This document shows positions 42,075-64,000 of a DNA stretch of 64,000 nt, piece by piece. Position 1 is the stretch's first letter, and every line of letters starts with the position of its first letter. Source of the DNA: Deltaproteobacteria bacterium. GTDB lineage: Bacteria > Desulfobacterota > Desulfarculia > JACQYL01. The notes under the pieces were generated by a model. The model saw nothing but the letters and a program-made list of their open reading frames with translations, was not told the DNA's origin and did no database searches. A program made the position numbers and the translations under genes. Location: positions 12,035 to 76,034 of the forward strand of contig JACQYL010000036.1 in the NCBI GenBank assembly GCA_016208165.1. Direction: 5' to 3'.

Positions 42075-42347
42075 CCACACAGGGCCTCCATCTAAATACT
42101 GATGGAATCGTCAAAGTAATTTCCTTTGGAGGATTTTTGTCAAATGACTTCTTGACATTCGGGCGCATTGCTTTTAAATTAAGCGCGAAAAAATCACACG
42201 GCTTGGATCCACATCGTTGGACCGAGACCCCTTTCATCGCTTCCGGAAGGGTTTTAGGCTGGACTGATCGACACCGGCACTGAAGCAGACTCCATCCGGA
42301 ATGAACAAAGGCGGCCTTCCGGTGCAACGAAATCGGGAGGTTTTTTT

Positions 42348-43193
42348 ATGGAAGTGATCAAAGACGTCCAGGAAATGCGTCAATGGTCTATTTCCTTTCG
42401 GCAAAATGGGGGAAGCATCGGCTTCGTTCCCACGATGGGTTTTCTGCACGAAGGCCACGTGAGCCTGCTGAAAGCGGCCAGGGAACGGTGCGACGCTCTG
42501 GTCGTCAGTATTTTTGTCAATCCGACCCAGTTTGGACCCAGCGAAGACCTCTCCCAATATCCACGCGACCTGGATAGAGACCTGACCCTTACTCGTGAAG
42601 TGGGCGCGGATATCGTGTTTTTCCCGGACGTATCGCAGATGTACCCGCCGGGATTTCAGACCTATGTTCAGGTGGAAGAGCTGAGTCGGGGACTCTGCGG
42701 GACGGACAGGCCCACCCACTTCAGGGGAGTGGCCACCGTAGTCGCCAAACTGTTTAATCAGGTCCTTCCCGATCAGGCCTTTTTCGGTGAGAAGGATTAT
42801 CAGCAGCTCGCCGTGATCAAGCGCATGGCGAAAGATCTCGACATGGGCGTGGAAGTCATCGGTTGCCCCATTGTCCGGGAGCCGGACGGCCTGGCCATGA
42901 GTTCGAGAAACGTCTACCTGAATACCAAAGGCCGGAAAGCGGCTCTCTGCCTGCGTCGCTCCATTCGGAAAGCGCAGGAGCTGGTGCGAAGCGGAAACAG
43001 AGAGTCGTCCTGGATTCTTCAGGAAGTAACCAACATCATAGCAACTGAACCATTGGTTCAGCTTATATACGCCGAGATCCGCCATCCGGAATCATTGGAC
43101 CCCCTCGATCATATTGACCCAAGGGGGGTGTTGTTGCTGGCAGCGCGGGTCGAAAATACACGATTGATTGACAACGGCTACTTGCCGGAATGA
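42348..43193 (+). CDS. panC: pantothenate synthetase
   Basis: A 281-residue PanC that condenses pantoate and beta-alanine using ATP. Signatures are [19 protein letters not shown] (HIGH-like motif), [56 protein letters not shown] and MSSRNVYL (KMSKS-like). The length is standard. GGGAGG precedes the ATG. panD follows after ten bases, so the two form an operon supplying the second half of pantothenate synthesis, apart from panB-panE at 15-17 kb. Confidence 0.96.
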
Positions 43194-58215: not shown

Positions 58216-60003
58216 ATGAAAGCTCGAAACGACGTGCGCAACATCGCCATTATCGCCCACGTAGACCACGGCAAGACCACTCTGGTCGACGCCATGCTCT
58301 GGCAGAGCGGAACCTTCCGCGCGCATGAACAGGTGGCCGAACGGGTCATGGACAGTATGGACCTGGAACGGGAAAAGGGCATTACCATCATGGCCAAGAA
58401 CACGGCCATCACCTACAAGGGGGTGAAGATCAACATAGTGGATACCCCCGGTCACGCGGATTTCGGCGGTGAAGTGGAGCGCGCCCTGAACATGGTGGAC
58501 GGCGTCATGCTACTGGTCGATGCCTCCGAAGGTCCCCTGCCCCAGACCCGATTCGTTCTCAGCAAGTCCCTGGCCGCGGGTCTTCCGATCATTGTTGTGA
58601 TCAACAAGATCGACCGGCCCGACCGGCGCATTGCCGAAGTGCTCGACGAAACCTACGATCTGCTCATCGACCTGGACGCCAAGGAGGAGCAGCTCGAATT
58701 CCCCGTACTGTATACCAACGCCAAGGCAGGCCTGGCCCTCACCGACCCGGACGGCGAAGGGCGTGACCTTCAACCGCTTTTCGAAGCCATCCTCAGCCAT
58801 ATCCCGGCGCCGGTGTGCGAGGAATCGGCGCCGCTGCAGTTCCTGGTCACCAACCTCGACTGGTCCGACTATGTGGGACGCATCGCGGTAGGAAAGGTGG
58901 TCAACGGGGTGCTGGCGCAGGGGTCAAGGGTCGCCCTCATGAAAAAGGGAGAATCGGCCGGCGTGTCGGCGCTGAGAGAACTCTACACCTTCTCGGGCCT
59001 CGAACGCGTCCCGGCCAAATCCGTTGCGGCCGGCGATATCGCAGCCGTGGCCGGGGTGGAAAACGCCTTTATCGGGGATACGTTCTGCGATCCCGAAGAC
59101 CCGCACCCGCTTCCCGCCATCAGCGTGGAAGAACCCACCATGTCCATGGAATTTTCGGTGAACACTTCTCCGCTGTCCGGCGCCGAGGGTTCCATCCTCA
59201 CCTCCCGCCGGATCAAAGCCCGGCTGGAAAAGGAGACGCTGTACAACGTATCGATAAGGGTGGCGCCGGGTGAGACGCCGGACGCCTTTGTGGTCAGCGC
59301 CAGAGGCGAACTGCAGTTGGCGGTGCTGGTGGAGACCATGCGTCGGGAGGGATTCGAACTCTCCCTGTCCACCCCCCGGATCATCACCAAGGAGATACAT
59401 GGGGTGAAATCCGAGCCGCTGGAAATGGCGGTCATCGACGTGCCGGAAGGCTATGTGGGCGTCATCACCGAAAAAATGAGCGCCCGCCGGGGAAAGATGA
59501 CCAAAATGGTGAACCACGGCAGCGGCCGCGTGCGGCTGGAATTCAAAATTCCCACTAGGGGACTTATCGGCTACCGGTCCCAGTTCCTCACCGACACCCG
59601 CGGCGAGGGGATCCTCACCACCCTGGTCATCGGACACACCCCCTACGCCGGAGATATCAGCGGCCGCACCAACGGCTCGCTTGTGTCCGACCGGTCGGGC
59701 AAGGCTGTCACCTACGCCATTTTCCACCTGCAGCCGCGGGGACAGATATTCGTAAAACCCAACGACCCCCTCTATCCCGGGCTGGTCGTGGGCGAAAACT
59801 CCCGCTCCCAGGACATAGCGGTCAACATGACCAAGGAAAAGAAGCTGACCAACATCCGCGCCGCCATGTCCGACGAGGCGCTGCGGCTCATCCCTCCCCG
59901 CACCTTCACCCTGGAACAGGCCATCGAATACATCAAGGACGACGAACTGGTGGAAGTGACCCCAAAATCTATACGATTACGGAAGAAGGGAAGAATCAAA
60001 TAA
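58216..60003 (+). CDS. typA: translational GTPase TypA/BipA
   Basis: A 595-residue ribosome-binding GTPase of the elongation factor family, involved in 50S assembly and stress adaptation. The G domain has [16 protein letters not shown] (G1), [16 protein letters not shown] (G3) and NKIDRPDRR (G4). The BipA-specific C-terminus has [44 protein letters not shown] and the terminal [24 protein letters not shown]. The length is normal. Its G+C-rich, high-bias codons contrast with the mobile debris on both sides. Confidence 0.97.
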
Positions 60004-60044
60004 CCTGCCAAATGCCGGGTATAGCGAACATCGATTGATCCAGC

Positions 60045-60225
60045 CGCAGCGTGCTGTCCAAGGCCCGCACCCGCTGGGGTGTCAAGGCCTTCCAGTCCTT
60101 TTTTGACCGGATCGTCACCCAATGTGTTCAAGCCGGTCTTGTTTCGGACAAGAAGCTGTTTATGGATTCGAGCGATATCCAGGCCGACGCCTCCAACAAT
60201 TCGGTGGTCAACACAGAAGATATCG
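60045..60225 (+). pseudogene. fragment of an IS1182-type transposase
   Basis: A frame from about 60045 encodes RSVLSKARTRWGVKAFQSFFDRI, then QAGLVSDKKLFMDSSDIQADASNNSVVN. This matches an internal part of IS1182-type transposases (VLSKARRRWG..FF-x-x-I..GLV..DS..I-x-ADASNNSVV). No start or C-terminus remains, and the frame then runs into unrelated sequence. No inverted repeats are seen. Confidence 0.7.
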
Positions 60226-60284
60226 GACACTGTTGTTTGTTTTTGTCGGGAAGGAATCGTGATCTTCTTTGGCGAAAGATCCCA

Positions 60285-60360
60285 CCCTGCGACAAGCTCG
60301 GGGCAGGCCCTGCGACAAGCTCGGGGCAGGCCCTGCGACAAGCTCAGGGCAGGCCCTGCG
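60285..60360. repeat. 23-bp direct tandem repeat, three copies
   Basis: The unit CCCTGCGACAAGCTCGGGGCAGG occurs at 60285-60307, 60308-60330 and 60331-60353 (one base differs in the third), followed by a partial unit. Units abut without spacers, so this is not a CRISPR array. It resembles the GACAAGCTC-type repeats scattered in many environmental proteobacterial genomes. Confidence 0.85.
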
Positions 60361-60611
60361 GGAATAATCCGGGTTAGCGGGACAGGCCTAAACCAACGTT
60401 CGAGTTGGATTCATTCAAGAGGCGGATTTGTCGGCGCCGGTGGATGACGTCGCCCTGCTTCCGCCGGCCTTTCTTTATCAGCTCGAGTATTCATCAGGTA
60501 TCGTTGACTTTTTCCCCGATAGAAAATCAGGCATGGGATGATTATTGTTGAGCGCCGGCCGAAAGGAAAGATATCAAAAAAGAAGACCCGACCCCGAAGT
60601 TCGCTTTTTAC

Positions 60612-60908
60612 TCATGCAGCCTTTATAGGCTGCAAACCACTTACATCGAGGGACCGCTCCGCTTTCCATAAATCATATTGTAACTGCAGTCGCATCCACG
60701 CTTCCGGCGTACGGCCGAAAACCTTGGACAGTCTCAGGGCCATCTCCGGGCTAATCCCTGATCTTCCATTAAGAAGGCCCGAGAGCGTCTTTCGTGTAAC
60801 TTTTAGGGCCTTGGCGGTATCGGTGACGGTCAAACCAAGGGGCTCAACACACATTTCTCTAATTATTTCGCCTGGATGTGGCGGATTATGCATACGCATG
60901 GCACTCAT
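60612..60908 (-). CDS. higA: HigA-type antitoxin
   Basis: A 98-residue helix-turn-helix antitoxin. [62 protein letters not shown] is the classic HigA/VapI pattern. It lies two bases after higB on the minus strand. It should neutralise HigB and repress the promoter at 61192-61226. The first ATG is used; an in-frame ATG three codons later is equally plausible. Confidence 0.92.
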
Positions 60909-60910
60909 CT

Positions 60911-61189
60911 CTAATGATAATCCTCATAGTTTACGTCCACAGCGTCACCCTTTCTCGATTTAAAGGTAACGCGCCAATTACGGCTTATTTTCACAGCCCA
61001 GGTTCCTGCAGGCTTTCCTTTCAGTTCATGCGGATCTAATGCCGGCAGGTCCATATCCTCAATCGTTTCAGCAGTTTCAAGAAGGGCCGGTACGTATCGA
61101 AGGCGCGTCAAATGTTGGGGATTGACGCCTGAAGCCTTCCCTGATTCAAATAATTGTTTCAAGCCCTTGTGTTTGAATTTCTGAATCAT
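60911..61189 (-). CDS. higB: HigB-type mRNA interferase toxin
   Basis: A 92-residue RelE/HigB-fold toxin that cleaves mRNA on the ribosome. The start [40 protein letters not shown] and the end [22 protein letters not shown] match the family, with conserved Arg and terminal His/Tyr residues for catalysis. Its ATG lies only eight bases after a strong -10 box and no ribosome binding site precedes it, so the mRNA is probably leaderless. higA follows after two bases (toxin first, as usual for hig). Confidence 0.92.
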
Positions 61190-61191
61190 TT

Positions 61192-61226
61192 TAACGTATT
61201 GTAACCCGATACGTTACAGGTGTCAA
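61192..61226 (-). promoter_or_regulatory. higBA promoter with palindromic operator
   Basis: On the minus strand TTGACA (61226-61221), a 17-base spacer and TACAAT (61203-61198) form a near-consensus promoter. The palindrome TAACGTAT-N9-ATACGTTA (61192-61216) overlaps the -10 box and the start site, an ideal autoregulatory operator for HigA or the HigBA complex. Confidence 0.8.
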
Positions 61227-61375
61227 GCCTTGAAATAATTTTACACGTAACAATGTTGAGTTTCGCGTCGCTCTTCCCAATTGAGCATTGCGGGGAAGCA
61301 AGATGTCAAGAAAAACCAGACCCCATAGTTCTCGCCGGATTTGGGGCGTATCCGGAGGCATGAACAACCACGGAA

Positions 61376-61517
61376 GATGTTACGCCGTTCGATCCCTCGG
61401 CAGATGATGTGATGCAACGCTCCCGGCGCATCAATGCGTGCTTTTCGTGGTGTGAGGTTTCTATATCACAGGCGATCAAACAAAGAAACGCGCAAATTCA
61501 ACTCTGTCCCCCTTTTG
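61376..61517 (-). mobile_element. RAYT-derived element, copy C (one end only)
   Basis: Only the right portion is present: the N-terminal coding part of the RAYT (APGALHHIICRGIERR on the minus strand) and the end GCGCAAATTCAACTCTGTCCCCCTTTT (to 61517). The left inverted repeat and C-terminal part are absent. The surrounding 61227-61655 interval holds no gene. Confidence 0.75.
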
Positions 61518-61655
61518 CCCGGCAAGAAGCATGGAATCGTGTTGATTTTAGAGAACGAAACCGACCGCAAGTATTTTATTCGGTTGAATTCGGTGATTAT
61601 GTATTACGGGTTGGATATGGACGTGTGGGAGGTGCGGTGGCGACATTAGGTTATG

Positions 61656-62231
61656 TCAATTTGAAAGTGCGACTATGGCAACTACCAGAGCAATTAAAGC
61701 TATAAGGCCGGTTATTACCTGAATATTATAACTTGCTCTGTCTATTCTACTTATCGGTGTTATTTCCTTTAAACCTTGTTCACATTCAGTAACACAATTT
61801 TCGAAATGCGTCATAGCCTCTGCTTTATTTGCAGTCCTTTTCTCTCTTCCTATATCGAATTGGCGTAAGGCGTTTTTTCGATATTCATCTGCATTACCTA
61901 TACTATGAAAGAAGCCAGCTCTATCAATTCTATCTGTGAGATCATTTAGCAGTTCGCCAGCAAGGTATTCGTATCCATTTACATCTAAATTTGATAGATG
62001 ATGTTCAGCTTGATCAAGCTGTTTGACAAAGTTATCAACATCAGGATCCGGATCCTCGCTTAGAAAAAACAATGCCTCGTTTAGATGGCTAAACGAATGT
62101 CGTAGATTTTCATAGTATTTAGCATTTGTGATGACAAACCCGGTCTTGCTCTCAATCCTGTTCTTATTTCTCTCCACCTGCCTAAAAATGGACACAAGAT
62201 ACTGGATTTTCTCCCTAATCTCTTTGTCCAC
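61656..62231 (-). CDS. tail-anchored protein of unknown function
   Basis: A 191-residue, AT-rich gene. The product is acidic and helical, with one C-terminal transmembrane helix (ITGLIALIALVVAIVALSN), so it is probably tail-anchored with the bulk in the cytoplasm. Heptad-like stretches (NEALFFLSEDPDPDVDNFVKQLDQAEHHLSNL) suggest helical bundles. No known domain is recognised. It lies 12 bases after a 71-residue gene on the same strand; the pair has its own promoter at 62661-62689 and atypical base composition, so it was probably acquired. Confidence 0.72.
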   Translation of the reverse strand: MDKEIREKIQYLVSIFRQVERNKNRIESKTGFVITNAKYYENLRHSFSHLNEALFFLSEDPDPDVDNFVKQLDQAEHHLSNLDVNGYEYLAGELLNDLTDRIDRAGFFHSIGNADEYRKNALRQFDIGREKRTANKAEAMTHFENCVTECEQGLKEITPISRIDRASYNIQVITGLIALIALVVAIVALSN

Positions 62232-62243
62232 AACGCGGTCCTT

Positions 62244-62459
62244 TTACCCAATTAGAGTATGGAGTAATCTCTTAAGGAAACTTACCTTTCTACGCACTTT
62301 TATAGTGCCCTCGTTTACACGAATCCGGCCATACGAATGAAAATTGCCCTTTCTCATTATCGTGTTTCTTCTGTGCGGTTTCAGATAGGCATTTGCTGAG
62401 TGCAGAAACTCATTTTCCGGGAACCCACCTTTTTGCCTTTGTTGTATAGCTCTTTCCAT
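62244..62459 (-). CDS. small basic protein of unknown function
   Basis: A 71-residue, strongly basic protein (RRNTIMRKGNFHSYGRIRVNEGTIKVRRK). The ATG at 62459 is supported by an excellent AAGGAGGACTGTT site; the frame is open to 62489. No helix-turn-helix or zinc motif is visible. It is the first gene of a two-gene unit with the tail-anchored protein, after a leader of about 200 bases. Nucleic acid binding is conceivable from charge alone. Confidence 0.6.
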   Translation of the reverse strand: MERAIQQRQKGGFPENEFLHSANAYLKPHRRNTIMRKGNFHSYGRIRVNEGTIKVRRKVSFLKRLLHTLIG

Positions 62460-62660
62460 AACAGTCCTCCTTCCGCACCCCAGCCTCACATTTCACGGCT
62501 AAATAAAAAAAGGGCTGACACATTCCTCAACCCTTCCCCCACCTTCCGACTTTTGGCCGTAACGAGTCACAACCCGTCTCTCGCTAACCCTTTATTGGTT
62601 GCCTTGCGCATAGACAACCCATTAGCCTCTATATCGACCAGGACTTATTTAAACGTCACA

Positions 62661-62689
62661 TTATACGGTCTTGACAGCGCAAGTCAAGC
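62661..62689 (-). promoter_or_regulatory. promoter with internal palindrome for the two-gene AT-rich unit
   Basis: On the minus strand TTGACT (62688-62683), a 16-base spacer and a perfect TATAAT (62666-62661). A palindrome CTTGAC-N7-GTCAAG (62671-62689) covers the -35 box and most of the spacer, so a repressor could block it. Confidence 0.65.
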
Positions 62690-63045
62690 AAAAAACTCAA
62701 CATTTCTCGAAGCCAAAATGTTAAAATCCAGCCTGATGGGCCGTAGATTTATGTTTCACCCCAACGCTTACAATCATAATATAGCTAAAGTACTTGTTTT
62801 TTGATCTGTCCAAATACCCCACCACGCGAGGAATGTCAACTGATCCTTTCCCTCAAAAAACAGAGTGCTCCTGCGGGTTATGAACTCTCATTTATCTTGT
62901 TTATAATGATAGTTCAAACGCAGGGAAGGTTTACCGTGAAAGAAGAGACCGGCAGGATCGAGGAACGCGTGGACGCCCCCGCGAGATTCCTCCGTAACGC
63001 GTTCCGCTGTGGCCTGGTCGGGATTTATAAGTTTTGGCAAGTATA
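62690..63045. other. intergenic region
   Basis: About 350 bases, AT-rich, upstream of the two-gene unit. Nothing recognised before element D begins. Confidence 0.4.
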
Positions 63046-63422
63046 GGAAAGGGGGACGGGGTTGATTTTGTGCATTTCTATTCTTCAACGGACAGTCCAT
63101 TATCCGAAGCAATCTGTCTGCCTCTGTAGACAGCCCGGCAGATCGCCGATCACCCCAGGCTCATGTTTCTCTCTCCCTCGATTGGGGGATCATAGCCCAC
63201 GCATAACAGGGCGTTGCGGTCTCGCCCAGCAGTTTCGCCAGGCGTTCGACAAACCGAATTCTGTCGGTATCGTCACGGAACATGTTACGCCGTTCGATCC
63301 CTCGGCAGATGATGTGATGCAACGCTCCCGGAGCATCCATGCGTGCTTTTCGCGGCATGAGGTTTCTGTATCTTAGACTACAAAACAAAGAAACGCGCAA
63401 ATTCAACCCCGTCCCCCTTTCC
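63046..63422 (-). mobile_element. RAYT-derived element, copy D
   Basis: The best-preserved copy, 377 bases. The left arm (63046-63078) and right arm (63390-63422) are inverted repeats of 33 bases with three mismatches, beginning GGAAAGGGGGACGGGGTTGA. On the minus strand it encodes MPRKARMDAPGALHHIICRG through RNMFRDDTDRIRFVERLAKLLG to CYAWAMIP and then breaks exactly where the catalytic His-x-His motif should follow. The C-terminal part at the left end is degenerate. Non-autonomous; no full-length transposase is in the window. Confidence 0.85.
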
Positions 63423-63461
63423 GCGCACGTCCCCCTTTCCCCGCACGTCCCCCTACCGTAG
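63423..63461. repeat. short reiterated copies of the element end
   Basis: Directly after element D the motif GCACGTCCCCCT recurs twice (63425-63436 and about 63443-63454), which repeats the element's terminal GTCCCCCTTTCC. It looks like terminal duplication. Confidence 0.5.
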
Positions 63462-63488
63462 GGGCAGGCCCCCGTGCCTGCCCTTTTT
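63462..63488 (+). terminator. terminator-like hairpin
   Basis: GGGCAGGC (63462-63469) pairs with GCCTGCCC (63476-63483), followed by TTTTT. No plus-strand gene ends just upstream, so it may be part of a dispersed intergenic repeat. Confidence 0.45.
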
Positions 63489-63600
63489 CCGGGCGGTCCC
63501 GCCCTGGCGGGAGGGCCACGCCCCTACCGCCAATACCCTTGCCACGGCATAGTCAGCGCATCTATCGGGATAAGTGAGAAAAACGCTTCTCGGCAGACCG

Positions 63601-63900
63601 CTATTTCGTTGTTGCCATTGCGCTTTGCGGCTGAGACTTACTCCTTGGACGATGCGCCGGAGAACCACAAAGCATCCCCTCCACGCTGATGTCTTCATCT
63701 ATGTCCGGCCAGCGGATGCATAGCCCGTCTCCGATAATCTCGAAGTTCCCACGCTGGTCGGGAGTTGCCTCTGAAAGCCGCCAAGACCATGCAAGAGGGA
63801 CACTGATCGTCCGCCCGTCCACAAGGTGGGCCATAATCTCATCTTCAGTGATTTGGATGGTCAATAGCCTTGGTTCGATCACATTAACCGCAATGCTCAT
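63601..63900 (-). CDS. DUF2442 domain protein
   Basis: A 99-residue protein of the DUF2442 family. ITEDEIMAHLVDGRTISVPLAWSWRLSEATPDQRGNFEIIGDGLCIRWPDIDEDISVEGML is the family core. DUF2442 proteins often sit beside DUF4160 partners in toxin-antitoxin-like pairs; no DUF4160 gene is seen here before the window edge. The start at 63900 follows GGAGGC. A single end of a RAYT-derived element lies 15 bases upstream, so that end may carry or displace its promoter. Confidence 0.85.
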   Translation of the reverse strand: MSIAVNVIEPRLLTIQITEDEIMAHLVDGRTISVPLAWSWRLSEATPDQRGNFEIIGDGLCIRWPDIDEDISVEGMLCGSPAHRPRSKSQPQSAMATTK

Positions 63901-63914
63901 TCCATGCCTCCAAA

Positions 63915-63943
63915 ATAGGAAAGGGGGACGGGGTTGATCTTGT
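63915..63943. mobile_element. isolated left end of a RAYT-derived element, copy E
   Basis: ATAGGAAAGGGGGACGGGG and the following TTGATCTTGTG match the left ends of copies B and D. The similarity stops at about 63943; the following sequence is unrelated. Confidence 0.7.
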
Positions 63944-64000
63944 GTAGCGTTGACAATAAGCACTCGGCGGAGCCAGTCGGCTGCATGGCAGGCTCATGCT

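Follow-up and report, generated by a model that had tools for sequence, protein, structure and literature searches.

The open reading frames ORF1 and ORF2 of the Desulfarculia genome GCA_016208165.1 (contig JACQYL010000036.1) form an operon that is real, orphan and mobile-looking, and whose RNA leader closes in a terminator-like hairpin (Table 1). The unit is single-copy in its own genome and lies in a stretch of 64,000 nucleotides, which was analysed as a whole and is referred to as the window. An earlier description made from the letters alone (the sequence-only reading) had presented it as an AT-rich two-gene unit with a palindrome-controlled promoter and had taken it for a small cargo system such as a membrane-acting toxin or defence pair; the leader with its terminator-like hairpin was absent from that description. 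The GC content was 0.37-0.47 across positions 61600-62949 (300-base windows) versus 0.54 for the whole window, in agreement with the AT-rich description.

Table 1. Features of the ORF1-ORF2 unit and of its borders; positions are those of the window.
Feature	Position	Strand	Description
ORF1-ORF2 unit		minus	order 5' to 3': promoter, ~194-nt leader, ORF1 (71 aa), ORF2 (191 aa)
Promoter	62660-62687	minus	sigma-70-type, TTGACT - 16 nt - TATAAT, 11/12 consensus matches
Inverted repeat CTTGAC-N7-GTCAAG	62670-62688	minus	possible operator; overlaps -35 box; within chance
Untranslated leader	62460-62655	minus	~194 nt; three predicted hairpins (62619-62597, 62586-62560, 62540-62505)
Terminator-like hairpin	62505-62540	minus	core stem AAGGGTTGA/TCAGCCCTT, loop 8, T-rich tail; 45 nt 5' of ORF1 start
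ORF1	62244-62459	minus	71 aa, very basic; gene status from ribosome binding site only
ORF2	61656-62231	minus	191 aa, predicted helical, acidic; C-terminal hydrophobic helix (~residues 170-190)
HigBA pair	60612-61189	minus	just downstream of the unit, same strand
Boundary segment	61537-61634	plus	repeated coding-like segment VLILENETDRKYFIRLNSVIMYYGLDMDVWEV; converges on ORF2, ~21 bp past the ORF2 stop

Coding potential and predicted properties of ORF1 and ORF2

Among 1000 simulated (Markov) sequences of equal length and dinucleotide make-up, a single one contained an ORF of at least 191 aa, and the amino-acid composition score of ORF2, for which the long ORFs of the window, chosen by length, served as reference, was matched by none of 1000 base shuffles. 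ORF2 looks coding. It starts with GTG, and the preceding AAAGGA touches the stop codon of ORF1, making coupled translation of the two frames likely. The highest 19-residue Kyte-Doolittle mean of ORF2 was 2.91 (residues 172-190), a hydrophobicity at which none of 5000 shuffles arrived (threshold 2.9). By sequence, one hydrophobic helix lies at the C-terminus of ORF2, with very few residues after it; the earlier term "tail-anchored" fits ORF2, which is apparently anchored in the membrane through this end. The single-sequence structure model was all-helical and of low confidence, with a mean pLDDT of 65.7 (best at about residues 110-150), and a fold search with this model retrieved nothing below E 0.14 in the PDB and nothing below E 0.56 in viral models. 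RxxxxH is the motif of HEPN nucleases; it occurs twice in ORF2 (RHSFSH at 44, RAGFFH at 104), two or more occurrences were counted in 5.2% of shuffles, and the R[NDH]xxxH form was present in 6.8% of ORF2 shuffles. No match of ORF2 to a defence model, a fold or a catalytic motif stood out from chance, and the two RxxxxH copies are a possible HEPN motif only.

ORF1 has a calculated pI of 11.7 (16 K+R vs 4 D+E). Its ATG (62459) is preceded by AAGGAGG at a distance of 6 nt, an arrangement (4-10 nt upstream) shared by 3 of the 2114 ATGs on both strands of the window, so that the description as a basic 71-residue frame with a strong ribosome binding site was accurate. ORF1 failed the length test, a second ORF of at least 71 aa being present in 230 of 1000 simulations, and also the composition test, in which 306 of 1000 shuffles scored as well; all three antisense frames over ORF1 outscored it by composition. 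Its best 19-residue hydropathy was 0.27, and its structure model had a pLDDT of 56.5. A weak promoter-like site (9/12) is located inside ORF1 at 62384-62356. The two-gene claim thus holds for ORF2, which passed the coding tests, whereas ORF1 is backed by its ribosome binding site only.

Promoter and palindrome

The promoter named in the sequence-only reading was recovered, and it is among the two best of seven promoter-like sites that a standard scan reported in 60500-64000, an ordinary number compared with the 4.5 (sd 2.7) obtained in shuffles. The same scan gave no promoter-like site between the hairpin and ORF1. The pattern CTTGAC-N3-12-GTCAAG has a single occurrence in the window, the one listed in Table 1. 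The repeat said to control the promoter is present, but the window has 202 perfect palindromes with 6-bp arms and a loop of 3-12 (~0.19 per 60 bp), and most of the -35 box falls within an arm of the repeat. The palindrome is not evidence of control.

An RNA leader with a terminator-like hairpin

The leader fold (176 nt) had a z score of -2.60, with 1 of 200 shuffles as good, and the 129-nt core, folded as a single sequence, had a z score of -3.56, with none of 200 shuffles as good; hairpins 1 and 2 alone gave -2.03 (6/200). For the terminator-like hairpin a z score of -2.62 (2/200) and pairing probabilities of 0.99-1.0 for the core pairs were determined. This hairpin was missing from the list of the standard terminator scan, which counted 5 terminators vs 3.9 by chance; G-U pairs probably prolong the stem into the T tract and hide it. 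Folding of five shortened transcripts ending before the 3' arm yielded no strong competing antiterminator. A ~150-nt RNA may be the usual product of transcription, the genes being reached by read-through.

With a strict terminator rule, devised after the hairpin had been seen, the whole window contained 13 promoters (at least 10/12) and 2 terminators (one per strand), forming 2 promoter-terminator pairs 60-250 nt apart vs none in 20 simulated windows. The second pair (42152-42348, plus strand) consists of a promoter-like site and a hairpin with a T tract directly 5' of an ORF at 42348, which by eye we take to resemble a pantoate-beta-alanine ligase. This pair overlaps the ribosome binding site of the ORF and may be accidental. 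Because of this overlap and of the post hoc rule, the pairing of promoter and terminator counts as support, not proof.

At gathering scores, Rfam had no match anywhere in the window; when E values up to 5 were admitted, no family fell inside the leader and five matches lay elsewhere in 60000-64000. Blastn of leader plus ORF1 against 60 genomes and a single-sequence covariance model of the leader run against 297 phylum genomes (Infernal, stricter filters) both returned the own genome only. In 62460-62720, a check for tandem repeats turned up nothing beyond 10-13-nt direct repeats in two copies, 73-212 nt apart; by eye, GGGTTG/GGGTTA occurs four times in the leader region with uneven spacing. 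The leader also contains a possible 12-codon ORF (MGCLCARQPIKG, 62622-62584, minus strand) with AGAGG upstream. It is the leader, rather than the palindrome, that is the part worth testing.

Search for relatives

Profile libraries, PDB sequences, phages, plasmids, viral contigs, a collection of 84,980 species and members of the phylum contained no convincing relative of either frame. The search of the 84,980-species and viral collections detects close relatives only; distant ones were addressed with the profile libraries and the phylum genomes. In Pfam, ORF2 gave three matches that did not reach the cut-off (E 0.021-0.056), and a search opened to E 10 added no others; it had two PHROGs matches (E 0.093 and 0.24), no match in NCBIfam and none up to E 1 among PDB sequences. 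The best PADLOC match of ORF2 (PDC-S06, E 0.0027, 14.3 bits) was judged a chance match of helical stretches. ORF2 was not found in phages or plasmids, and none of its 7 pattern matches in viral contigs or 48 in genome contigs (close relatives only) was confirmed. In 63 class genomes ORF2 matched its own genome only, in 297 phylum genomes additionally one other (G051), and in 395 phylum genomes 12 others with E 0.001-0.094. The G051 match falls on an ORF of 546 aa whose product looks, by eye, like a GAF/HD-GYP-type protein, and was rejected; the other 11 were weak by score (12.3-14.6 bits).

ORF1 matched nothing in Pfam, NCBIfam, PADLOC and PHROGs, no helix-turn-helix was recognised, and PDB, phages and plasmids were likewise without a match. 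None of its 13 pattern matches in viral contigs and 160 in genome contigs was confirmed. In the 297 phylum genomes, ORF1 matched 17 places in 16 genomes besides its own (E 0.004-0.098), 8 of them with internal stops; 14 of the 17 were judged by realignment alone. The three others (L008, L010, L022), compared with the ORFs around them, were rejected: their coordinates place them within larger ORFs and in a different frame. The relatives searched beside the own genome were class-level kin only, and the lineage may therefore simply be poorly sampled. Among those open-access papers on the layout and the flanks that were considered, none describes such a gene pair.

Genomic surroundings

The unit is embedded in repeats. 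Parts of the left flank (61190-61660, mostly 61369-61520) match at least 43 places in the own genome and parts of the right flank (62700-63160, from 63032 on) at least 48, the query included in both cases and with 40 of 56 and 40 of 55 first-look candidates scored, and two 147-nt direct repeats that are 90% alike (61369-61515 and 63274-63420) bracket the unit at a spacing of 1905 bp. By a sequence motif, we take the flank repeats to be truncated fragments of REP-type/Y1 transposases; the one fragment tested against Pfam had no match. A MITE-like element of ~377 bp (63046-63422) ends in 34-nt inverted repeats (91% complementary) and by eye contains a truncated transposase-like start. A short divergent frame (VKEETGRIEERVDAPARFLRNAFRCGLVGIYKFWQV, 62936-63046, plus strand) has GGGAAGG upstream, and the longer frame around it had no Pfam match at E 0.1. 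A DUF2442 protein is encoded at 63601-63963 on the minus strand (Pfam E 5e-17).

On the other side, the unit is adjoined by a HigBA pair, with HigB identified by Pfam (E 2.1e-15) and HigA by NCBIfam (E 4.5e-33); PADLOC matched neither. A promoter-like site for HigBA (11/12) is present at 61226-61198. With multicopy repeats and HigBA next to the unit, the mobile debris and toxin-antitoxin genes reported earlier were found again. Foreign base composition, multicopy flanks and HigBA support the cargo status of the earlier proposal; its "toxin or defence pair" is without direct support.

The boundary segment between ORF2 and the HigBA pair has four copies in the genome, the others being located in L071 (1526-1623), L073 (1541-1638) and L072 (about 1473-1536). 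It had no Pfam match, and at E 0.01 no copy was found in a further 62 genomes of the class. In six of six copy pairs the mismatches peak at one codon position (4, 13 and 3 by phase for the window vs L071), from which it follows that the segment is or was coding. The L071 copy starts 42 bp past the stop of a HicA-like ORF (Pfam E 2.6e-5; 24.7 bits, below the cut-off of 27), the L073 copy lies ~20 bp past an ORF without a convincing family or PDB match, and the L072 copy ~294 bp past an ORF without family assignment. A recognisable toxin-like gene precedes the segment in one of the three comparison copies, a weak hint that toxin-antitoxin operons use the slot in which the unit lies.

Comparison with known systems

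One of the closest likenesses in layout is to the AbiF/Abi_2 locus of Clostridioides difficile phi027. This locus has an ncRNA, RCd22 (98-132 nt for the major and the full-length form), followed by a Rho-independent terminator at which transcription mostly stops, read-through giving the protein (PMC12373285). One promoter, an ncRNA with terminator and a gene reached by read-through would thus be common to both, and the distance from transcription start to ATG is 168 nt there (PMC12373285) vs a predicted ~194 nt in the unit. The proteins differ: the AbiF protein is an AbiF/Abi_2 member with HEPN-like structure (PMC12373285), whereas the unit has a small basic ORF and a helical, hydrophobic-tailed protein. 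Pfam matched no Abi_2 domain in ORF2.

In type III toxin-antitoxin systems (ToxIN, CptIN, TenpIN), a terminator separates the antitoxin RNA from the toxin gene, and the order promoter, RNA, terminator and protein gene is that of the unit (PMC5086642). In the unit, the Rho-independent terminator between RNA and protein gene is a prediction, the leader is devoid of tandem RNA repeats, and ORF2 has no convincing match to a ToxN/CptN/TenpN-type endoribonuclease in Pfam, NCBIfam, PADLOC or PDB; the additional small frame ORF1 and the hydrophobic tail of ORF2 are further differences from type III loci. Assignment to the type III or AbiF systems fails, with no RNA repeats and no ToxN or Abi_2 match. 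The unit resembles these loci in the order of parts only, and the other testable defining features fail. The AvcI RNA restrains AvcD, a deoxycytidylate deaminase, and is thereby a precedent for an RNA antitoxin acting on a protein that is no ToxN nuclease; unlike in the unit, its authors predicted no terminator between avcI and avcD (PMC10511110).

The neighbouring HigBA pair is likewise a two-gene accessory unit on the same strand and differs in belonging to recognisable families. Neither ORF1 nor ORF2 belongs to a recognised toxin or antitoxin family of type II systems, ORF1 is basic and not the small hydrophobic toxin peptide of type I systems, and the leader matches no known structured RNA or riboswitch in Rfam.

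Discussion

We propose, tentatively and with considerable doubt as to the statement as a whole, that the unit was acquired horizontally as an AT-rich orphan accessory operon, in which an attenuated RNA leader precedes an RNA-restrained membrane effector. The anatomy in this proposal is probable; the effector reading is much less so. RNA polymerase would start near 62654 and mostly stop near 62503, giving a structured RNA of ~150 nt, and read-through would yield an mRNA for coupled ORF1-ORF2 synthesis. ORF2 would be inserted into the inner membrane via its C-terminal helix, with the helical domain in the cytosol. The basic ORF1 product, made just before ORF2, could bind either ORF2 or RNA, possibly that of the leader, and restrain or arm ORF2. 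Failure of host transcription, as in phage infection, would then lead to loss of the short-lived RNA and release of ORF2, and the unit would behave as an addiction or abortive-infection module whose membrane-bound effector is restrained by RNA. The leader, with the terminator-like hairpin inside it, fits such a restraint and is no proof of it. A membrane-acting protein is suggested by the predicted C-terminal hydrophobic helix of ORF2 and by nothing else, and the defence or toxin reading of the unit is unproven, a guess.

Alternatively, promoter, leader and hairpin could be a small RNA gene of its own next to an unrelated, weakly expressed orphan membrane-protein gene, ORF2, with ORF1 being no gene; the failed length and composition tests of ORF1, the 9/12 promoter-like site within it and a hairpin strong enough to mostly separate the RNA from ORF2 argue for such neighbours. 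The rarity of the ORF1 ribosome binding site and the contact of the ORF2 ribosome binding site with the ORF1 stop speak for one unit instead, and we regard this alternative as possible but doubtful. A conventional attenuator or riboswitch-type leader, in which a regulated terminator senses a metabolite, a protein or leader-peptide translation and controls an ordinary accessory membrane function, would account for a hairpin directly ahead of the genes and for the 12-codon leader ORF; as no Rfam family and no strong competing antiterminator were found, we consider it unlikely.

The version implied by the sequence-only reading, with ORF1 as a DNA-binding antitoxin of type II-like character that represses through the palindrome and ORF2 as the toxin, draws on the order of a small basic before a larger frame, the repeat over the -35 box and the HigBA neighbour. 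It is distinctly unlikely, given a palindrome within chance, an ORF1 without helix-turn-helix or other family and with a low-scoring model, and a terminator that would be oddly placed between promoter and antitoxin. Decaying orphan DNA, left over from a pair of phage or island genes and no longer functional, would explain the repeat fragments on both sides and the failure to find relatives; against it stand the promoter, the ribosome binding sites, the hairpins of the leader and a frame of 191 codons that is still intact, and this too is quite unlikely.

Within the proposed RNA-restrained operon, the most specific form would be a new defence or addiction module in which a self-terminated structured RNA guards an effector of two proteins, one basic and RNA-binding, the other helical and anchored in the membrane, with all three parts outside known families; we hold this to be very unlikely. 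If the RNA is no guard, the unit adds to the known orphan cargo operons and is of purely local interest. If it does guard a membrane protein, RNA-restrained effectors would be extended from nucleases and deaminases to membrane-anchored proteins.
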